Both the position numbers and the translations under genes were made by a program. The notes below the pieces were generated by a model. It did not search any database. It was not told the origin of the DNA and saw only the letters and a list, made by a program, of their open reading frames with translations. From NCBI RefSeq assembly GCF_001428305.1, contig NZ_LMRZ01000005.1, positions 248,001 to 312,000 of the forward strand: DNA of 64,000 bases, written 5' to 3'. This DNA is from Janibacter sp. Soil728. Its GTDB lineage: Bacteria > Actinomycetota > Actinomycetes > Actinomycetales > Dermatophilaceae. Shown here piece by piece: positions 32,675 through 42,796 of the stretch; positions within the stretch are counted from its first letter, which is position 1; the number at the start of each line of letters is the position of its first letter.

Positions 32675-32723
32675 CCCACTTCCGCCTTGACCAGCAGCCC
32701 GTGTGACTGACAGGAGCAGCAAG

Positions 32724-33491
32724 ATGCAGATCGACCTCAATGCAGACCTCGGCGAGAGCTTCGGCAGCTGGACCCTGGGTGACGACGACGCGATGCTCGA
32801 GGTGGTGACCAGCGCCAATGTCGCCTGCGGCTTCCACGCCGGCGACCCCTCGGTCCTGCGGCACAGCTGTGACCGTGCTGCTGACCGAGGGGTCGCCATC
32901 GGCGCCCAGGTCGGCTACCGCGACCTGGCGGGCTTCGGCCGGCGCTTCATCGACATGGTGCCGGCCGAGCTCACCGATGACGTGCTCTACCAGATCGGTG
33001 CGCTCGAGGCCTTCGCCAAGGTGGCGGGCACGCGGGTGCGCTACGTCAAGCCCCATGGCGCGCTGTACAACGCGATCGTCCACCACGAGGCGCAGGCAGC
33101 AGCGGTCGTCGAGGCCGTCGTCTCCTACGACCGCACCCTGCCCGTCCTCGGGCTGCCGGGGTCGGCGTGGCTACGACTCGCGGAGGAGGCCGGCCTGACC
33201 ACGGTGGGCGAGGCCTTCGCCGACCGTGCCTACACACCGGAGGGCACCCTCGTCTCCCGTCGCGAGCCCGGCGCCGTGCTGCACGACCCCGCCGAGATCG
33301 CCGAGCGGTGCATCCGCATCGCGACGAAGGGAGAGGTCGTCGCCACGGACGGCAGCATCGTCGCCGCACCAGCAGGGTCGCTGTGCGTGCACGGCGACAG
33401 CCCCGGAGCGGTGGAGATCGCGCGGCAGGTGCGTGCCGGCCTGGAGCAGGCCGGGGTGCCACTCACTCCCTTCGTCGGGGAGGTCGGATGA
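32724..33491 (+). CDS. pxpA: 5-oxoprolinase subunit A (LamB/YcsF family)
   Basis: The 255-aa protein begins with the family signature [14 protein letters not shown], followed by [13 protein letters not shown] and [12 protein letters not shown]. PxpA, PxpB and PxpC together hydrolyse 5-oxo-L-proline to glutamate using ATP. ATG after CAGGAGCAGC. The stop overlaps the pxpB start. Confidence 0.96.
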
Positions 33492-34102
33492 AGCTCATGC
33501 CATGCGCCGACTCCGGGCTGCTCGTGGAGATGTCCGACATGGACGAGGTGCTCGCGCTCTACGCCCACCTCGACGAGGACCTGCCGGACGGCGTCATCGA
33601 CATGGTGCCGGCCGCGACGACGCTCCTGATCACCATCGACCGCACGGTGACGGACGTGGAGCGACTGGCCCGACAGGTCTCGAGCATCTCCGTGGGGACC
33701 CACCACCGGGCGAAGACCGGCGAGGTGGAGATCCCCGTGGTCTACGACGGTGAGGACCTGTCAGAGGTCGCCCGACTCACGGGACTCGACGAGCGCGGAG
33801 TCATCGAGGCGCACACCGGGACCCCGTGGACGGTCGCCTTCTGCGGGTTCGCACCCGGCTTCGGCTACATGGTGGGTGGCGACGAGCGCCTGCAGGTACC
33901 TCGCCGTGACAACCCACGGACCAAGGTGCCGCCGGGGTCCGTCGCGCTCGCCGGTGAGTTCGCGAGCGTCTACCCCCGGGAGTCGCCCGGTGGCTGGCAG
34001 CTCATCGGCCGGACCGCGCTGGAGGTCTGGGACATCCACCGCGAGCCGCCAGCGCTGCTCGTGCCGGGGACCGTGGTGCGCTACGTGGAGTCGGCGGCAT
34101 GA
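33488..34102 (+). CDS. pxpB: 5-oxoprolinase subunit B (KipI/AHS1 family)
   Basis: The 204-aa protein has the AHS1 signature [20 protein letters not shown] followed by [20 protein letters not shown]. It forms the active unit with PxpC. Bacillus KipI was first described as a kinase inhibitor, but the operon here supports oxoproline hydrolysis. Overlaps of 4 nt with both neighbours. Confidence 0.95.
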
Positions 34103-34983
34103 GCACCTTCCGCGCGCTCGAGATCGTCGCGACCGGGCCCCAGTCGACGGTCCAGGACCTCGGCCGTGAGGGCCTCGCGGGCCTGGGCGTCGGTCGCTCC
34201 GGTGCAGCAGACCTCGGCTCGCTCCGGCTGGCCAACCGCCTGCTCGGCAATCGTGAGGGAGCCGCTGCGCTCGAGGTGACCTTCGGAGGGCTCGAGGTCC
34301 GGGCCCGCGGTGGCATGTGGGTGACCGTGACGGGTGCGATGACGCCCGCGACCATCGACGGACGGCCCGTCGGGCACGCCGCCGTGACCTGGCTGCCGGA
34401 CGGAGCCTCCCTTCGTCTGGGGCCGGCGACGGCCGGTCTGCGCAGCTATCTGGCCGTGCGTGGTGGGATCGACGTGGCGCCGGTCCTGCAGTCGCGCTCG
34501 ACCGACACGATGGCCGTGCTCGGACCTGCGGTACCCGCCCCGGGCGACCTGCTGCCGATCGGCCCGACCCCGGGTGCTCCTCCCCTGGTCGACGTCGCCC
34601 CAGTGGCCACACCCACCACGGGCGAGGTCCGTCTGCGGGTGGCCCCCGGCCCCCGGACGGACTGGTTCGTGCCTGCTGCCCTCGATGCGCTCACGGGCGG
34701 CACCTACGAGGTCACGGCCGAGAGCAATCGCGTCGGGATGCGCCTGTCCGGACCAGTGCTCGCGCGCGCCCGGGACGACGAGCTCAAGAGCGAAGGGATG
34801 GTCCCCGGCGCGCTGCAGGTGCCGCCCACCGGGCAGCCCACCCTCTTCCTCGCCGACCATCCCGTGACCGGTGGCTACCCCGTGATCGGGGTCGTCCTCT
34901 CGGACGACGTCGGTCTGGCTGCACAGGCCCAGCCGGGGCAACGACTGCGCTTCGTCCTGATCGGTGGTGCTCGGCGTGGGTGA
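34099..34983 (+). CDS. pxpC: 5-oxoprolinase subunit C (KipA/AHS2 family)
   Basis: The 294-aa protein has the AHS2 family pattern: [24 protein letters not shown] near the N-terminus, [19 protein letters not shown] in the middle and [15 protein letters not shown] near the end. It is the partner of PxpB. Coding overlaps with pxpB and nearly with the DUF1445 gene. Confidence 0.95.
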
Positions 34984-34987
34984 CTCG

Positions 34988-35776
34988 ATGATCACCACCT
35001 CGAAGGCAGCGCTCGACCCCACGGCGGCGCGGGCACGCTTCCGCGACGGGCTGCGCGTCCCCACCTCCGGCTGGAGCGCAGGCTGGACCCAGGCCAACCT
35101 CATCGCCGTCCCCCGGGAGCAGGCCTACGACGTCCTGCTCTTCGCGCAGCGCAACCCGAAGTCCTGCCCCGTCCTCGATGTCACCGAGCCCGGGGAGGTG
35201 GGCTGCGGGATCTTCGACGGCGACCTGCGGACCGACCTGCCCGGCTATCGCGTCTACGAGCACGGGGAGCTCGTGGCCGAGGTGTCGGATGTGCGCGAGC
35301 TGTGGCGCACGGACCTCGTGGCCTTCCTCATCGGGTGCAGCTTCACCTTCGAGGCAGCCCTGCTCGAGGCAGGAGTACCGGTGCGCCATGTCGAGGTCGG
35401 CAGCAATGTCCCGATGTACCGCACCAACCGGCCGTGCCGGTCCGCCGGGTCGATCGGCGGCCCTCTCGTGGTGTCGATGCGGCCGATGTCGGCGGACAAG
35501 GTCGCGACCGCCGTCCGGGTCACCTCGCGATACCCGGCCGTGCACGGTGCGCCTGTGCACATCGGTGATCCCGAGGCACTCGGGATCACGGATCTCGCAT
35601 CGCCCGACTTCGGTGAGTCGGTGCCGATCGCTGATGGGGAGATCCCCGTCTTCTGGGCGTGCGGGGTGACTCCTCAGGCCGCGGTGATGCAGTCTCGGCC
35701 CCCCTTCGCCATCGGTCACGCGCCCGGGATGATGGCGATCACCGACGCTCGGGACAGCGACTACCTCGTGCCGTAG
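34988..35776 (+). CDS. putative hydro-lyase, DUF1445 (YcsI family)
   Basis: The 262-aa protein has the family segments [43 protein letters not shown] and [12 protein letters not shown]. The related Bacillus ycsI is also in the oxoprolinase cluster. Its reaction is not established; the name hydro-lyase comes from database annotation of the family. Start ATG at 34988; a GTG at 34976 is in frame and overlaps pxpC by 8 nt. Confidence 0.88.
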
Positions 35777-35783
35777 GGCCGGC

Positions 35784-37817
35784 TCAGGTCCCGAACCAGA
35801 ACCCGCGCCCGCCGAACCAGTCGCCGTACTCGCCGGGCGCTCCCCCACCGGGCTGGCGCGATCCCAGGTAGGACCCCACGACCGCGGCGCCGAGGTCGTC
35901 CAGCTCTGGAGCCACGACCCTGCCCCCGGCGCGTCGGGCCAGCGTCTCGACGAAGCGCGCGAGCCCGGGGTCCTCCCCGAGGCGGAAGAAGGTCGTCTGC
36001 GCCCCGAGCCGCGCCGCGTGGTCGAGCTCGCGGACCGTGATGGCAATGGTGAGCGGGTGCGGTGGGTAGTCGAAGAAGGCCTCGCCGCCGGACTCGAGGT
36101 GGGCCGTCGGTTCGCCGTCCGTGACGATCAGCAGCACGGGCTGGGCATTGGGGTGCCGCCGGAAGTGACGGTTGGCCAGGAGGAGCGCGTGGTGGAGGTT
36201 GGTCCCCTTGTCCCAGTACGCGTCGAGGCCGGTCAGCTCCTCGATCTCCATGACGCTGGCGTGCCGACCGAAGCCGATGAGCTGGAGATGGTCTCCGCGA
36301 AATCGCGTGCGGATGAGGGTGTGCAGGGCCAGCGCGGTCCTCTTCATGGGAACCCAGCGCCCGTCCATCGCCATGGAGAAGGAGGTGTCCACGAGCAGCG
36401 CGACTGCCGCCTGGGTGCGCGCCTCTGTCTCGGAGACCTCGATGTCGTCGGTCGTGATGCTGCGGCGGCTGCCATCGGCGGCCCGACGCAGGACGCCGTT
36501 GAGCACGGTGCGCGGGATGTCCCAGGGTTCGGTGTCGCCGAACTCCCATGCGCGTGAGGCTCCGGACCGCTCGCCGGCCGCGCCGGCCTGGCGCAGGTCG
36601 CGCTGGCCCTGCCGTCCTGACATCCGTTGCGCGATGTCGCGCAGCAGCGCCTTGCCCAGCTGACGCATGGCCTTGGGGGTGAGCCGCAGCTGCCCCTCGG
36701 AGTCGCGTCGCACCGAGCCGCTGCTGCGCAACGCCTGCTCGAGATCACGCAGGGCGCGCGCGTCGATCGCCGCCTCGTCGCCGAGTGCTCGAGCCAGCTC
36801 GTCGAGGTCGATGTCGTCCAGGCCCGCCCCGGCATGTGACTGGGAGAGCTGGTCACCGAGCGCATCGAGCCGGGCGATGTCCTGCAGCATGCCGGTGCCG
36901 TCGCCGAGGCCGAGCCCCTGCTCTCCCCCGAACTGCTCGGCCCCGTTCCAGTCCTCACCGGGACGCAGCGCTTGCAGGTTGCCGTCGAGCCGATCCAGCG
37001 ACTCCATGAGCGCAGGTGAGCCGAAGGCCTGCGAGGACAGCTGCATCAGCTCCTCGCGCTGCTCCGGTGTCATGGAGTTGAGCAGCCGCTGCGCCGCTGC
37101 GGCACGCTGGGCCATGGCATCGATGAGCTCATCGACGTCCTGCGGGCCCTCAGGGAAGAAGTCCCCGTGCTTGTCCATGAACTCGGCGAAGTCCTGCGGG
37201 GTGTCCTCGTCCCGCTGGTGCTTCTCGAGGAGCTCGTTGAGATCGCGCAGCATCGCGTCGATGGCGGCCCGGTCGGCATCCGTGGCGCCCTCCATGGCCT
37301 GCTTCATGCCGGCGAAGCGCTGATCGAGCACCTCGCGTCCGAGCAGGTCCTTGATCTGCTCGTAGTCCGCCCGGGCCCGGGTGGACTGCCAGGGGTAGTC
37401 CTGCAGCTCGCTCACCGCGGCCGCGGTCGACGCGGAGAGGTTGTCCAGCCTCATCTCGGCGAAGTCGCGCTCGAGGTCGTCGAGGTGGACATCGCGTGCG
37501 AGCTGCTTGCGCTCCTCGAGGACAGCACGGTCCAGCAGCTCGCGGACCTCGCGGAGGGTGCCGTCGAGACCATGCTGCTGGAGCAGCTCACGGCGGCGTT
37601 CGTTGACCTGGCGGGCGAGGTCGTCCAGCCCGGTCTGCTGCCGACCGCCCCGCCGGAGGAACTCCCGCAGTGCACGCTCCGGCGAGGAACCGCCCATGAC
37701 GTCCTCGCCGATGGCGTCGAGGGCCTCGGCGATGTCGACGGGTGGCGCGAGCGGGTCTCCGCCGTCGTAACGACGGAAGCGGCTGCGGCTGCGGCTGCGG
37801 CTGCGGCTAGTGGCCAT
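35784..37817 (-). CDS. von Willebrand factor A domain protein (chelatase-like partner)
   Basis: The 677-aa protein begins with an SR-dipeptide run coded by a hexamer repeat, then a long helical region of about 400 residues. The C-terminal VWA domain (from about residue 450) has the MIDAS DTSFS in LLVDTSFSMAMDGRW. It matches the VWA partners of MoxR/Mg-chelatase-I ATPases, which act as unfolding or metal-insertion pairs. Its ATG overlaps the end of the ATPase gene by 11 nt. No tetrapyrrole genes are nearby, so metal chelation is unlikely. Confidence 0.88.
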   Translation of the reverse strand: MATSRSRSRSRSRFRRYDGGDPLAPPVDIAEALDAIGEDVMGGSSPERALREFLRRGGRQQTGLDDLARQVNERRRELLQQHGLDGTLREVRELLDRAVLEERKQLARDVHLDDLERDFAEMRLDNLSASTAAAVSELQDYPWQSTRARADYEQIKDLLGREVLDQRFAGMKQAMEGATDADRAAIDAMLRDLNELLEKHQRDEDTPQDFAEFMDKHGDFFPEGPQDVDELIDAMAQRAAAAQRLLNSMTPEQREELMQLSSQAFGSPALMESLDRLDGNLQALRPGEDWNGAEQFGGEQGLGLGDGTGMLQDIARLDALGDQLSQSHAGAGLDDIDLDELARALGDEAAIDARALRDLEQALRSSGSVRRDSEGQLRLTPKAMRQLGKALLRDIAQRMSGRQGQRDLRQAGAAGERSGASRAWEFGDTEPWDIPRTVLNGVLRRAADGSRRSITTDDIEVSETEARTQAAVALLVDTSFSMAMDGRWVPMKRTALALHTLIRTRFRGDHLQLIGFGRHASVMEIEELTGLDAYWDKGTNLHHALLLANRHFRRHPNAQPVLLIVTDGEPTAHLESGGEAFFDYPPHPLTIAITVRELDHAARLGAQTTFFRLGEDPGLARFVETLARRAGGRVVAPELDDLGAAVVGSYLGSRQPGGGAPGEYGDWFGGRGFWFGT
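37779..37808 (-). repeat. hexamer tandem repeat in the VWA gene
   Basis: Five perfect copies of AGCCGC on the coding strand give alternating Ser-Arg at the N-terminus. Changes in copy number would keep the frame. Confidence 0.85.
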
Positions 37818-39207
37818 ACACGGTCGCGCCTCCCGACGAGTCCTTGCCGATCTTGCGGGCCAGGTACAGGCCCTCGAGGACCAGCTCGAGGGCGGCGGCC
37901 CGCTCGCCGTCGGAGTCGGCGGTGAAGCGCTCGAAGATCTCGTCGTAGACGGTCGACTCGCCCAACGCGGGGAGCCCGTCGAGGAAGTCACGCGCGGTGA
38001 CCTGCTCGCCGGTCGAGATCTCGGCGCCCTCCTCGACCGCCCGCACGAGCGGTCCGAAGTCGATCCCGTGCACGAGGTGTCGGACGGTGTCGGCGACCGC
38101 GGTGCGGAGCAGGTGGGTGAGGACCTCGAGCTCACGCCCCTCCTCCCCGCTCTCGAACTCGATCTTGCCGCCGAGGACCTCGACGGCGGTCTCGAGGTCG
38201 ACGACCCTGGCCACCGGCTCGTCCTCGCCCTGGGTGGCCGCGCGGTGCAGCGCCGAGGCGGCGATGGTCTCGGCACCGGCGATGGCGAAGCGGGCACTGA
38301 CGCCGCTGCGTTGGTCCACCGCGGAGGACTCGCGCAGATTGCGGGTGAAGCGGGCAAGGACCTCGATCAGGTGGTCGGGGACCTCGGCGACGAGCTGTGC
38401 CTCCTGCCGCGTCACGGCGATCTCCGCCTCGAGCTCGCGGGGGTAGTGGGTGCGGATCTCTGCGCCGAAGCGGTCCTTGAGCGGGGTGATGATCCGACCG
38501 CGGTTGGTGTAGTCCTCGGGGTTGGCGCTCGCGAGCACGAGGACGTCGAGGGGCAGACGCAGGACATGACCGCGGACCTGGATGTCGCGCTCCTCCATGA
38601 CATTGAGCATCGCCACCTGGATCCGCTCGGCGAGGTCCGGCAGCTCGTTGATCGTCACGATGCCGCGGTGGCTGCGCGGGATGAGCCCGAAGTGGATCGT
38701 CTCGGGGTCGCCCAGGGCACGCCCCTCGGCGACCTTCATCGGGTCGACGTCACCGATGAGATCAGCGACGGAGGTGTCGGGTGTCGCCAGCTTTTCGACA
38801 TAGCGCTCGTCGCGGTGCCGCCAGAGGATGGGAAGGGAGTCGCCCAGCTCTTGTGCACGCCGCTGGGACTCGTGCGTGATCGGCTCGAAGGGATGCTCTG
38901 CCAGGTCGGAGCCGGCGATGACGGGGGTCCACTCGTCGAGGAGTCCGACGATGGTGCGCAAGAGTCTCGTCTTGCCCTGACCGCGCTCGCCGAGGAGGAC
39001 GATGTCGTGGCCCGCGAGCAGCGCTCGCTCCACCTGCGGGATGACCGTCTCCTCGTAGCCGTGCAGTCCCGGCCACGGGTCCTCACCTGCCCGCAGACGA
39101 TCGAGCAGGTTGTCGCGGATCTCCACACGCAGGGGCTTGGCGACGTGTCCGGCGGCACGCAGCTCGCCGACGGTCGAGGCGGTCGGGGCGGCAGTCGAGG
39201 TGCTCAC
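37807..39207 (-). CDS. MoxR/Mg-chelatase-I-like AAA+ ATPase
   Basis: The 466-aa protein has Walker A GERGQGKTR, Walker B and sensor in VTINELPDLAERIQVAMLNVMEERDIQVRG, and LASANPEDYTNRGRIITPLKDRFG. These are the chelatase-I-type AAA+ marks. It should work with the VWA protein coded next. The GTG at 39207 has TAGCCT 7 nt upstream; the ATG at 39213 would lie only 1 nt after that box. The 90-bp divergent region to clpP contains a palindrome that may couple both operons. Confidence 0.88.
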   Translation of the reverse strand: MSTSTAAPTASTVGELRAAGHVAKPLRVEIRDNLLDRLRAGEDPWPGLHGYEETVIPQVERALLAGHDIVLLGERGQGKTRLLRTIVGLLDEWTPVIAGSDLAEHPFEPITHESQRRAQELGDSLPILWRHRDERYVEKLATPDTSVADLIGDVDPMKVAEGRALGDPETIHFGLIPRSHRGIVTINELPDLAERIQVAMLNVMEERDIQVRGHVLRLPLDVLVLASANPEDYTNRGRIITPLKDRFGAEIRTHYPRELEAEIAVTRQEAQLVAEVPDHLIEVLARFTRNLRESSAVDQRSGVSARFAIAGAETIAASALHRAATQGEDEPVARVVDLETAVEVLGGKIEFESGEEGRELEVLTHLLRTAVADTVRHLVHGIDFGPLVRAVEEGAEISTGEQVTARDFLDGLPALGESTVYDEIFERFTADSDGERAAALELVLEGLYLARKIGKDSSGGATVYGH

Positions 39208-39214
39208 CTGCATG

Positions 39215-39220
39215 AGGCTA
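39215..39220 (-). promoter_or_regulatory. -10 box TAGCCT for the AAA+ gene
   Basis: TAGCCT, then 7 nt, then GTG 39207. The expected -35 position (about 39238-39243) overlaps the left edge of the palindrome at 39241-39257. Confidence 0.5.
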
Positions 39221-39240
39221 GACCCCTCTGCTGACAGCGG

Positions 39241-39257
39241 ATCTGCCCGGAGCAGAA
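39241..39257. promoter_or_regulatory. PopR/ClgR-like palindrome upstream of clpP
   Basis: ATCTGCCCGGAGCAGAA fits the TTCTGCC-N3-GGCAGAA palindrome that I recall for Streptomyces PopR at 12 of its 14 defined positions. It lies directly before the -35 region of the clpP pair and over the -35 region of the divergent ATPase gene. Confidence 0.6.
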
Positions 39258-39297
39258 GGGTGACGGTCCTCCCCCTTCGTCGGAGCAGGGTGGAGGC

Positions 39298-39927
39298 ATG
39301 GCTGACACACCGACCCCACGACTCTTCGACGACCGGACCAGGCGCGAGCTGCTCGACCAGCGCGTGCTCGTCCTGGACGGCGTGCTGGACGACGACAACG
39401 GCACCCTCCTCGCGGCCCAGGTGATGACTCTGGCCGCCTCTGACCCGGTCGCGGACATCGCGCTGTGGATCCATTCCCCAGGCGGCTCCGTGTCGGCGAT
39501 GCTCGCGATCCGTGACGTCATGCGACTGGTGCCCAACGACGTGAGCACGCTGGCGCTCGGGATCGCCTGCAGCGCAGGGCAGTTCCTGCTCTCCTCAGGG
39601 ACGAAGGGGAAGCGTCGCGCTCTGCCGCACTCCCGGGTCCTCATGCACCAGGGTTCAGCCGGGATCGGCGGGACCGCGGTGGATGTCGAGCTGCAGGCCG
39701 ACGACCTGCGGCACACCCGCGACACGGTCCTCGGCCTGATCGCGCGGGACACCGGGCAGCCGCTGGAGCGGGTCTTCGGGGACTCGCTGCGGGACCGGTG
39801 GTACTCGGCGCAGGAGGCGGTCGACTACGGCTTCGTCGACGCGATCGTCGCGACCTTCGACGAGGTCTCCCCGCAAGCGCGGGAACGCACGGGGTTCGCC
39901 GGCGCTCTCGTGGGGAGCACCCGATGA
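39298..39927 (+). CDS. ClpP-family protease subunit (ClpP3-like)
   Basis: The 209-aa serine protease subunit has the catalytic Ser in LGIACSAGQFLL, the His in LPHSRVLMHQ and a normal ClpP length without a propeptide. It is one of two adjacent paralogues with a PopR-like gene, the arrangement of clpP3-clpP4-popR in Streptomyces. CAGGGT is 6 nt before the ATG. The stop overlaps the next clpP start (ATGA). Confidence 0.93.
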   Translation: MADTPTPRLFDDRTRRELLDQRVLVLDGVLDDDNGTLLAAQVMTLAASDPVADIALWIHSPGGSVSAMLAIRDVMRLVPNDVSTLALGIACSAGQFLLSSGTKGKRRALPHSRVLMHQGSAGIGGTAVDVELQADDLRHTRDTVLGLIARDTGQPLERVFGDSLRDRWYSAQEAVDYGFVDAIVATFDEVSPQARERTGFAGALVGSTR

Positions 39928-40511
39928 GCACCTACCCGATCCCCAGTGTCATCGCCCAGCACCCGCGCGGCGAGCGGATCATGGACGTCTACTCGCACCT
40001 GCTCACCGAACGCATCATCTACCTGGGGACCGGCATCGACGCGGGTGTCGCCAATGCGCTCATCGCCCAGCTGATCCACCTCGAGTCGGTCGCGCCGGAC
40101 CGGGACGTCCAGCTCTACATCAACTGCGAAGGGGGTGACCCCAGCGCGATGCTCGCCGTCCTGGACACCATGCGCTACATCCGACCCGATGTCGCGACGA
40201 CCTGCGTCGGTCAGGCCGTGTCCGTCGGGGCGGTGCTGCTCGCCGCGGGGGCACCCGGCAAGCGTGCTGCGCTCTCCCACGCCCGGGTCGTGCTGCACCA
40301 GCCGTCAGCGCAGGGTCGCGGTCCCATCCCCGACCTGATCCTCCAGGCCGACGAGCTCGTTCGGGTGCGCTCGGACATCGAGGAGGTCCTGGCGTCGGCC
40401 ACCGGGCGGCCTGTCGCGGAGCTGCGCACGGACACAGACCGGGACCGGGTCTTCACCGCGACGGCCGCCAGGGACTACGGGCTCATCGACGAGGTGATGG
40501 CCACGCGCTGA
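39924..40511 (+). CDS. ClpP-family protease subunit (ClpP4-like)
   Basis: The 195-aa protein has the catalytic Ser in CVGQAVSVGAVLLA, the His in LSHARVVLHQP and the family N-terminus (DVYSHLLTERIIYLG). It probably forms mixed rings with the preceding subunit. The AAA+ unfoldase it uses is unknown; the standard ClpX/ClpC are not in the window. Converges with the xre gene 3 nt later. Confidence 0.93.
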   Translation: MSTYPIPSVIAQHPRGERIMDVYSHLLTERIIYLGTGIDAGVANALIAQLIHLESVAPDRDVQLYINCEGGDPSAMLAVLDTMRYIRPDVATTCVGQAVSVGAVLLAAGAPGKRAALSHARVVLHQPSAQGRGPIPDLILQADELVRVRSDIEEVLASATGRPVAELRTDTDRDRVFTATAARDYGLIDEVMATR

Positions 40512-40514
40512 GGG

Positions 40515-40868
40515 TCAGGCAGCGAGGGCGAGGACGGACGCCGTGGTGCGGGAGTGCTGCGGCGTCCGGACCGCCTCGGCGACGGCCAGGGTGAGGTCGA
40601 GGATGGTGACGTCGAGGGCACCACCCACCGCGGCGATCATCTCGCTCGAGGGTTCCTTGCGGCCGCGCTCGATCTCGGAGAGATATTGGGGCGAGATGCC
40701 CGCCCGGTCTGCGGTCTCCCCCAGGGTGTGGCCCCGCTCGTGCCGCAGTCGGCGCAGCTCGGTGCCCAGCGCCTCTCGCCACAAGGGCTCGCGGCGCCGT
40801 CGCCGGGCCAGGAGTGCCTGCTCGAAGGGGGTCGCCTCACGGCCTCGGGTCAGCGCTGCGTCGCTCAT
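40515..40868 (-). CDS. XRE-family regulator of the ClgR/PopR type
   Basis: The 117-aa protein has a Cro/C1 helix-turn-helix of the ClgR/PopR kind: GTELRRLRHERGHTLGETADRAGISPQYLSEIERGRKEPSSEMIAAV. It ends in Leu-Ala-Ala (SVLALAA). Streptomyces PopR and ClgR, which end in similar non-polar residues, are themselves degraded by ClpP. It is convergent with the clpP pair and has its own copy of the palindrome upstream. Confidence 0.88.
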   Translation of the reverse strand: MSDAALTRGREATPFEQALLARRRRREPLWREALGTELRRLRHERGHTLGETADRAGISPQYLSEIERGRKEPSSEMIAAVGGALDVTILDLTLAVAEAVRTPQHSRTTASVLALAA

Positions 40869-40873
40869 GCCTC

Positions 40874-40879
40874 AGCGTA
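40874..40879 (-). promoter_or_regulatory. -10 box TACGCT for the xre gene
   Basis: TACGCT, 5 nt (GAGGC), then ATG 40868. A leaderless or nearly leaderless start. Confidence 0.5.
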
Positions 40880-40907
40880 GATCCGGCGGGGTCCGGCCCG
40901 ACGGAGA

Positions 40908-40924
40908 TTCTGCTCTGGGCAGAA
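40908..40924. promoter_or_regulatory. PopR/ClgR-like palindrome upstream of the xre gene
   Basis: TTCTGCTCTGGGCAGAA is a near-perfect palindrome matching TTCTGCC-N3-GGCAGAA at all but one position. It ends immediately upstream of the expected -35 region, as at clpP, which suggests activation and self-control by the XRE protein. Confidence 0.65.
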
Positions 40925-40997: not shown

Positions 40998-41246
40998 ATG
41001 ACCGAGTACTCGACCGAGGAGATGGACGCGGCTCGCGAGGCCGCGCAGAAGGCGGTCGACACCGCCACCTCGTGGGACTACAGCGCCGGGGAGACCAAGA
41101 TCGCGGACAAGTTGCGCGAAGGGCTCGACGCCGCCGGCGTCACGGTGGACGACGAGGAGTTCGCCCGTCTGGTCACCGAGATCGACGCCATCGCCGCGGA
41201 CGAGTCGATCGGGCCGCCGACGGTGACGGCGGCCTCTCCACGCTGA
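40998..41246 (+). CDS. hypothetical acidic 82-aa protein
   Basis: The small acidic protein starts at ATG with GAGAGGA upstream. Helical sequence with two halves (MDAAREAAQKAVDTATSWDYS and KLREGLDAAGVTVDDEEFARLVTEI). No membrane segment, cysteine or known motif. I do not recognise a family; similar short acidic proteins occur in related actinobacteria. Confidence 0.7.
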   Translation: MTEYSTEEMDAAREAAQKAVDTATSWDYSAGETKIADKLREGLDAAGVTVDDEEFARLVTEIDAIAADESIGPPTVTAASPR

Positions 41247-41482: not shown

Positions 41483-41563
41483 TGATCGTTGACTGGTGAG
41501 TCGCGACATCGTTGACGAACTCGTGGTGGTGATCGTTGACCGGTGAGTCGCGACATCGTTGAC
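41483..41563 (+). repeat. two direct 34-bp repeats before the transposase
   Basis: Two copies, 41483-41516 and 41530-41563, starting TGATCGTTGAC and containing TGAGTCGCGACATC. They differ by one base. A third copy of the first 28 bp follows the transposase at 42794-42821, its TGA being the transposase stop. Confidence 0.85.
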
Positions 41564-41588
41564 ACTCCAAATTCGTCGACGATCGGTC

Positions 41589-42796
41589 ATGAGCTCTCGT
41601 GACAAGAATCTGGTGATCGTGCGGTCCGTGCTTGACCAGGGTCTGACCGCGACCCAAGCAGCGCAGCGTTTCGGCGTCACCCGCCAGTGGGTCCATACCC
41701 TCATCCGCCGTTACGAGGCCGAAGGCCCCGACGGTCTGGCCCCGCGAAGCCGCGCCCCGAAGTCACGCCCAAAGACCACGAGCGCGGCGGTACGCGAACG
41801 GATCATCGAGCTACGGCGACAGCTGAGCACCACGGGCGCCGACGCCGGCCCAGAAACCATCGCCTGGCACCTGCAGCACGAAGGGATGCCGGCGCCCTCG
41901 ACCTCGACCATCCGCCGGATCCTGCACTCGCAAGGCTTGGTCATTCCCGAACCGAAGAAGCGCCCGAAGTCCTCCTACATCCGCTTCGAGGCCGACCTGC
42001 CCAACGGCTGCTGGCAGGCCGACATTCCCCCAAGCACTTCGTGCAGGGAGGTGCCCCCACCCACTGGCACCTGGCCGACGGCACCCGTGTCGAGGTCTTG
42101 GACTTCCTGGACGACCACTCCCGCTACCTGCTGCACATCCGCGCCGCATCGGCCTACAGCGGACCCATGGTCGTGGACGCACTGCAGTCCCTGATCGACC
42201 AGCACGGCGTGCCAGCCTCCACGCTGACCGACAACGGACTGGTCTTCACCGCCCGGCTGGCCGGCCGCAAAGGTGGACGCAACGGCTTCGAAAAGCTCCT
42301 GGAGGCCCACCACATCCAGCAGAAGAACGGCCACCCCGGCCACCCCCAGACCCAAGGCAAGATCGAGCGCTTCCACCAAACCCTCAAACGGTGGCTCCGC
42401 GCCCACCCCCGCCCGGAAACGATCGCCGACCTACAACAACTCCTCGACGAGTTCGAGCGCTGGTACAACCACCAGCGACCCCACCGATCCGTGGCCCGGC
42501 GAACCCCCGCGACCGCGTACACGGCACTGCCCAAAGCCACGGCCGTGACCCCAGCGACCGAGCCCGAATGGCGCTCCCGCACCGACAAGATCGCCACCTC
42601 CGGCACCGTGTCACTGCGCTACGCCGGCAAGCTACGCCACCTGGGCATCGGCCGCGCCCACGCCGGCCAACCCGTCCTGATGCTCATCCACGACAACCAC
42701 GTCATCACCAGCCACGCCGCCACCGGAGAAGTCCTGACCGAGCACCACATCGACCCTGACCGCGACTACCAACCCCCGACCCGACCCCCGTCATGA
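41589..42796 (+). pseudogene. IS481-family transposase, frameshifted
   Basis: The N-terminal part (from ATG 41589) has the helix-turn-helix LTATQAAQRFGVTRQWVHTLIRRYE and reads to WQAD, which contains the first catalytic Asp. After a 32-nt insertion the reading continues in another frame: THWHLADGTRVEVLDFLDDHSRYLL, then LTDNGLVF (second Asp) and the HPQTQGKIERFHQTLKRWL segment with the catalytic Glu. Removing 42026-42057 restores one frame of about 391 codons. The element is therefore inactive unless rescued in trans. The stop TGA lies inside a terminal repeat. Confidence 0.88.
42026..42057. repeat. 32-nt palindromic insert in the transposase
   Basis: The insert starts TCCCCCAAGCACTTCGTGC and ends GGGAGGTGCCCC. 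GCAC-TTC-GTGC forms the tip and the flanking C and G runs a lower stem. It resembles the short GC-rich hairpin repeats scattered in some actinobacterial genomes. Its length, not a multiple of three, causes the frameshift right after the catalytic WQAD. Confidence 0.65.

Follow-up and report, generated by a model that had tools for sequence, protein, structure and literature searches.

How are two divergent gene pairs, one encoding a AAA+ ATPase with a VWA-domain protein and the other two ClpP paralogues, connected by a palindrome that lies between them and recurs in front of a PopR-like gene? The question arises in a window of 64,000 nucleotides from Janibacter sp. Soil728 (NZ_LMRZ01000005.1, positions 248,001 to 312,000), whose closest named locus in our comparison is that of J. 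limosus NBRC 16128. Open reading frames and profile matches confirm five genes in 35784-40868: a VWA gene, a AAA+ ATPase gene, two clpP paralogues and a ClgR-like XRE regulator. The VWA-domain protein (35784-37817, minus strand; 677 amino acids; Pfam VWA_2) is a partner of the Rv0959/MSMEG_5511 type and contains the MIDAS motif DxSxS...T...D, in which D477, S479, S481, T539 and D567 are invariant (A2). Its gene overlaps by 11 bp with that of a MoxR/ChlI-like AAA+ ATPase of the Rv0958/MSMEG_5512 family (37807-39213, minus strand; Pfam AAA_5 and Mg_chelatase), whose Walker motifs are complete. A VWA relative is present in 80 of 80 named loci, on the same strand downstream of the ATPase in at least 74. 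On the plus strand, genes for a ClpP3-like (39298-39927; Pfam CLP_protease, 6.6e-52) and a ClpP4-like peptidase (39924-40511; 9.5e-63) overlap by 4 bp and thus form an operon of two paralogues, both of which display Ser-His-Asp triad motifs by inspection. The last gene encodes a PopR-like XRE activator, a ClgR paralogue (40515-40868, minus strand; Pfam HTH_31 and HTH_3) with the C-terminus ...VLALAA. Its best NCBIfam match is ClgR, at 70.5 bits against a cut-off of 170, as expected of a paralogue. These coordinates bear out the gene arrangement proposed in an earlier sequence-only reading, in which the ATPase and VWA genes diverge from two clpP paralogues followed by a PopR-like gene.

The surroundings are mixed. 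Convergent with the VWA gene, a series of genes for 5-oxoprolinase-like subunits (the first of LamB/YcsF type) and for a protein similar to DUF1445 occupies 32703-35776. Past popR lie a small open reading frame of 82 amino acids (40998-41246), which is kept in a congener where the clp block is missing (G211), and a transposase-like gene (41559-42796) that is split over two frames with an overlap (41559-42194 and 41687-42796), which may reflect a programmed frameshift or decay. Defence-system models returned nothing relevant.

We next consider the palindromes, ATCTGCCCGGAGCAGAA at 39241-39257 and TTCTGCTCTGGGCAGAA at 40908-40924. Read towards clpP3 and popR they are identical at 15 of 17 positions, and their centres lie 49 and 48 nt upstream of the respective start codons. 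Within one mismatch of TTCTGCYCNGRGCAGAA, the whole 3.64-Mb genome contains two sites, which are these two palindromes, so their occurrence is not due to chance. The looser core TCTGCN5GCAGA is uninformative by itself, with nine genomic sites compared to seven for the reversed control. The near-perfect copy that had been noticed before popR is therefore real. Upon closer examination, the spacer palindrome proved to be one of two boxes in a 30-bp tandem operator (39227-39256) that the sequence-only reading had missed. Box B, TCTGCCCGGAGCAGA (39242-39256), is the core of the palindrome and matches the published TCTGCC-3N-GGCAGA at 11 of 12 positions. It abuts box A, TCTGCTGACAGCGGA (39227-39241; 12/12 by a relaxed score), the ATPase-proximal half of the operator, which lies over the ATPase spacer and -35 region. 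A single box, TCTGCTCTGGGCAGA (40909-40923), stands upstream of popR, and the sites at clpP3 and popR are each one mismatch from the published sequence. The PopR site reported in a review of work on Streptomyces reads TCTGCC-3N-GGCGAATCTGCC-3N-GGCAGA (PMC9775585). An abutting 12/12 pair was found in 0 of 200,000 shuffles of the spacer, a figure that is indicative only because the relaxed scoring was chosen after the sites had been seen.

In each of the six Janibacter clpP3 promoters with an adjoining ATPase gene, the two boxes reach a score of 11/12 or better, and their sequences drift between species (G205, G206, G204). In 36 family loci containing clpP3, clpP4 and popR together, operator-like sites occur upstream of clpP3 and popR, with a mean best mismatch of 2.8 versus 4.8 for shuffled sequence and 4.6 for the clpP4 control. 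Other genera share the tandem layout at clpP3 promoters without a neighboring ATPase gene (for example L084, L087, L102 and L108), and popR has a single box. Hence, the operator belongs to clpP3 and is explained by clpP3 alone. The popR gene and the clpP operon stand tail to tail in the family loci, and the regulator ends in AA or SA in most of the 36 homologues, the ALAA end of the Janibacter protein being ssrA-like. ClpP1P2 degrades PopR in Streptomyces, and upon failure of ClpP1P2 the regulator activates clpP3P4 (PMC9765437, PMC12607617). Judged by its sequence, the clp arm is a further member of this known module.

The position of the operator relative to the ATPase promoter depends on the start codon. 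Because congeners use GTG 39207, the ATPase gene probably begins there, leaderless, rather than at ATG 39213, and only with this start does the spacer to clpP3 measure 90 bp. A predicted -10 element, TAGCCT (39215-39220, minus strand), lies 7 nt before the GTG. Two congeners that lack the clp block, G211 and G178, retain a TAG-type -10, and in many ATPase orthologues a similar element directly precedes the start. On the clp side, a weak -10-like element, CAGGGT (39286-39291, plus strand), may serve clpP3; it is 37 nt from the palindrome centre, equal to the distance at popR. Measured upstream of GTG 39207, box B is centred at -42 and box A at -27, and six bases separate the end of box A from the predicted ATPase -10. 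Thus, a PopR-type operator that overlaps both promoters, as had been suggested, is supported by the sequence. Upstream of ATPase orthologues outside Janibacter we found no convincing operator. Since box A falls within the ATPase promoter, a filled tandem operator would cover that promoter, which suggests occlusion, not co-activation; if the -42 box alone were filled, the same predicted boxes could also activate the ATPase gene.

The two arms are not neighbors in this strain only. The divergent clp block lies beside the ATPase gene in 6 of 16 Janibacter genomes, and the ATPase is present in 9 of 16. The G211 sequence stays homologous through the ATPase promoter until directly before box B, and its clp block is missing; G178 and G199 likewise have the ATPase gene without the clp block at this place, and in G207 the clp block is present and no ATPase was detected. 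An additional stretch of about 0.7 kb separates the ATPase gene from clpP3 in G200 (L076, 7474-8182), where the tandem boxes stay on the clp side. The clp side of G200 is 94% identical to G204, G208 and G207 and the ATPase side 83%, a contrast that suggests recombination. The gene tree of the ATPase and VWA proteins mixes block-bearing and block-less Janibacter species in both subclades. This grouping fits losses in G211 and G178 and favors an adjacency that is probably ancestral in Janibacter and was later lost in some species.

Beyond the genus, the adjacency is not conserved across Micrococcales, where it had been thought worth seeking. The loci read outside the genus contained no clp block beside the ATPase-VWA pair, apart from a Nocardioides case, and a coordinate comparison of family, order and class searches found none nearby on the same contig outside Janibacter and Nocardioides among the matches listed; many compared genomes are drafts, and the count is blind to links across contig ends. 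Nocardioides sp. GY 10127 (L160, 9464-12196) is the one departure from this: its clpP3-clpP4-popR set lies about 3 kb downstream of ATPase-VWA with a BtuF-like gene in between, an arrangement that is not a shared promoter. ATPase orthologues occur in 144 of 247 class genomes and 106 of 186 family genomes, most of them without clpP3P4 nearby among the matches listed. Co-occurrence of the pair with clpP3P4 is not significant family-wide (30/47 versus 76/139; Fisher p=0.31); within Janibacter it reaches p=0.04, a value confounded by linkage and ancestry.

What the ATPase-VWA pair might do is indicated by its relatives. It shares full-length homology and the conserved ATPase-then-VWA order with the Rv0958/Rv0959-type pair. 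One class genome (L112) displays the order purN-purH-ATPase-VWA, which we take to be that of Rv0956-Rv0959, and its ATPase shares about 71% identity with the Janibacter protein; order and identity together support orthology to the Rv0958-type ATPase. MSMEG_5512 is the orthologue of Rv0958 (PMC7092591), and the Janibacter ATPase appears to be an orthologue of MSMEG_5512 on the basis of gene order and annotation, not of MSMEG_5512's own sequence. In the ClpC1 interactome of M. smegmatis, both MSMEG_5512 and MSMEG_5511 were recovered, the former also marked as a match of earlier ClpC1 studies; thermophoresis showed binding of MSMEG_5512 ("magnesium chelatase") to ClpC1, and ClpC1P1P2 did not degrade MSMEG_5512 (PMC10433963). 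No other outside evidence speaks as strongly for a Clp role, and these data point to the unfoldase, not to the ClpP3P4 ring. The ClpC1 interaction might also reflect a substrate relation, though degradation in vitro was negative. A literature search for Rv0958 together with Rv0959 found no paper.

Several readings compete over this arrangement. One is that PopR at box B, which is centred in a class II position (-42) relative to the predicted leaderless start, activates ATPase-VWA together with clpP3P4 and that the pair serves the reserve protease, a service that the sequence-only reading had raised as a possibility. The persistence of the adjacency and of both boxes in six Janibacter genomes fits such joint activation, as does the published binding of the orthologue to ClpC1. 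Against it, occupancy of box A, centred at -27, would obstruct RNA polymerase, clp-less orthologues that have no operator keep the same -10, and the pair shows no significant family-wide co-occurrence with clpP3P4. We consider joint activation unlikely. The arms might instead be bystanders, the clp block having been inserted or retained beside the ATPase gene by chance, with an operator that serves clpP3 only and a trivial effect on the ATPase. That clpP3 alone accounts for the operator agrees with this, as do the genomes that have one arm without the other (G211, G178 and, with no ATPase detected, G207) and the signs of recombination in G200. A chance neighborhood is harder to reconcile with a tree that favors ancestral adjacency retained in six species, with boxes placed within the ATPase promoter and with the ClpC1 link of the ATPase family; it is possible, if doubtful.

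The remaining alternatives concern function. A AAA+ ring ATPase next to clpP, with Walker and VWA MIDAS motifs complete, could be imagined to act as an unfoldase, docking on ClpP3P4 and delivering substrates to the ring. The IGF-type docking tripeptide loop expected of Hsp100/Clp unfoldases is not conserved in the ATPase, so feeding of ClpP3P4 is unsupported; moreover, the family is MoxR/ChlI-like, not Hsp100, and is widespread in genomes that have no clpP3P4 nearby among the matches listed. We regard this role as very improbable. Of the proposal that the pair may feed or assist ClpP, the feeding part lacks support, and a Clp link is supported by the ClpC1 binding of an orthologue. That the genes encode the I and D subunits of a magnesium or cobalt chelatase, with no connection to proteolysis, is improbable as well. 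Such an identity would explain why the best solved-structure matches are ChlI proteins, why the mycobacterial annotation reads magnesium chelatase and why a transposon upstream of mmar_4541 was found in a B12-resistance screen. However, no large chelatase subunit was identified beside the genes, and NCBIfam scores fall far below the equivalog cut-offs (33 versus 499.6 for BchD; 28.8 versus 779.5 for the VWA protein). An AlphaFold model of the ATPase has low confidence at residues 139-241, and a structure search with it returned generic AAA+ matches only.

Starting from genes, operator sequences, conservation and lineage distribution that are observed directly, we favor an explanation in which a PopR reserve Clp switch occludes the promoter of a ClpC-accessory pair, and we hold it, as a whole, to be moderately probable. 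In an ancestor of most sampled Janibacter, the PopR module would have been placed divergently next to the class-wide Rv0958/Rv0959-type operon, at a distance of about 90 bp. With its ssrA-like AA tail, PopR is probably destroyed by housekeeping ClpP1P2. Upon failure of ClpP1P2, it would accumulate, bind 39227-39256 and 40909-40923, and switch on clpP3P4 and popR. Turnover and activation are taken here, as is ClpC1 binding, from published work on relatives, and we infer all expression and binding in Janibacter. Because the outer box covers the ATPase spacer and -35, bound PopR would most likely block the ATPase promoter and so control the arms with opposite sign. The AAA+-VWA and reserve Clp arms are thus probably controlled together, more likely oppositely than jointly, and for ATPase-VWA a role as accessory chaperone to the ClpC unfoldase is likelier than one as a motor that feeds ClpP3P4. 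A less probable extension of this is a two-way switch, in which failure of the housekeeping Clp protease would turn the reserve ClpP3P4 on and the ClpC-associated pair off, changing the set of Clp accessories, and the pair would be an unrecognised class-wide Clp accessory in Actinomycetes. The Rv0958/Rv0959 pair is present in most sampled Actinomycetes, and the adjacency to a Clp operon in Janibacter, taken with the published binding of an orthologue to ClpC1, points to a role in protein quality control. The overlap of operator and ATPase promoter yields a sharp prediction of opposite signs for the two arms.

We know of no ClpP link for the RavA-ViaA, CoxD-CoxE, NorQ-NorD and ChlI-ChlD couples. 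The Janibacter pair resembles them in coupling a AAA+ ring ATPase to a MIDAS VWA protein and differs from them as a distinct sequence family (PMC7159879). By contrast with Janibacter, the mycobacterial-type Rv0958-Rv0959 locus has no clpP3P4 neighbor. The clp arm is like the S. lividans clpP3-clpP4/PopR module (Viala and Mazodier; PMC9765437, PMC9775585) in its two clpP genes in one operon, its ClgR-paralogue activator, its tandem TCTGCC-3N-GGCAGA-type operator and the C-terminal AA signal found on regulators degraded by ClpP1P2. Unlike in that module, popR in Janibacter has its own single box, and the clp arm is divergent from an adjoining ATPase-VWA operon, with the operator extending over the promoter of the latter. 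What is new at this locus is the lineage-specific overlap of a PopR operator with the promoter of an ATPase pair linked to ClpC.
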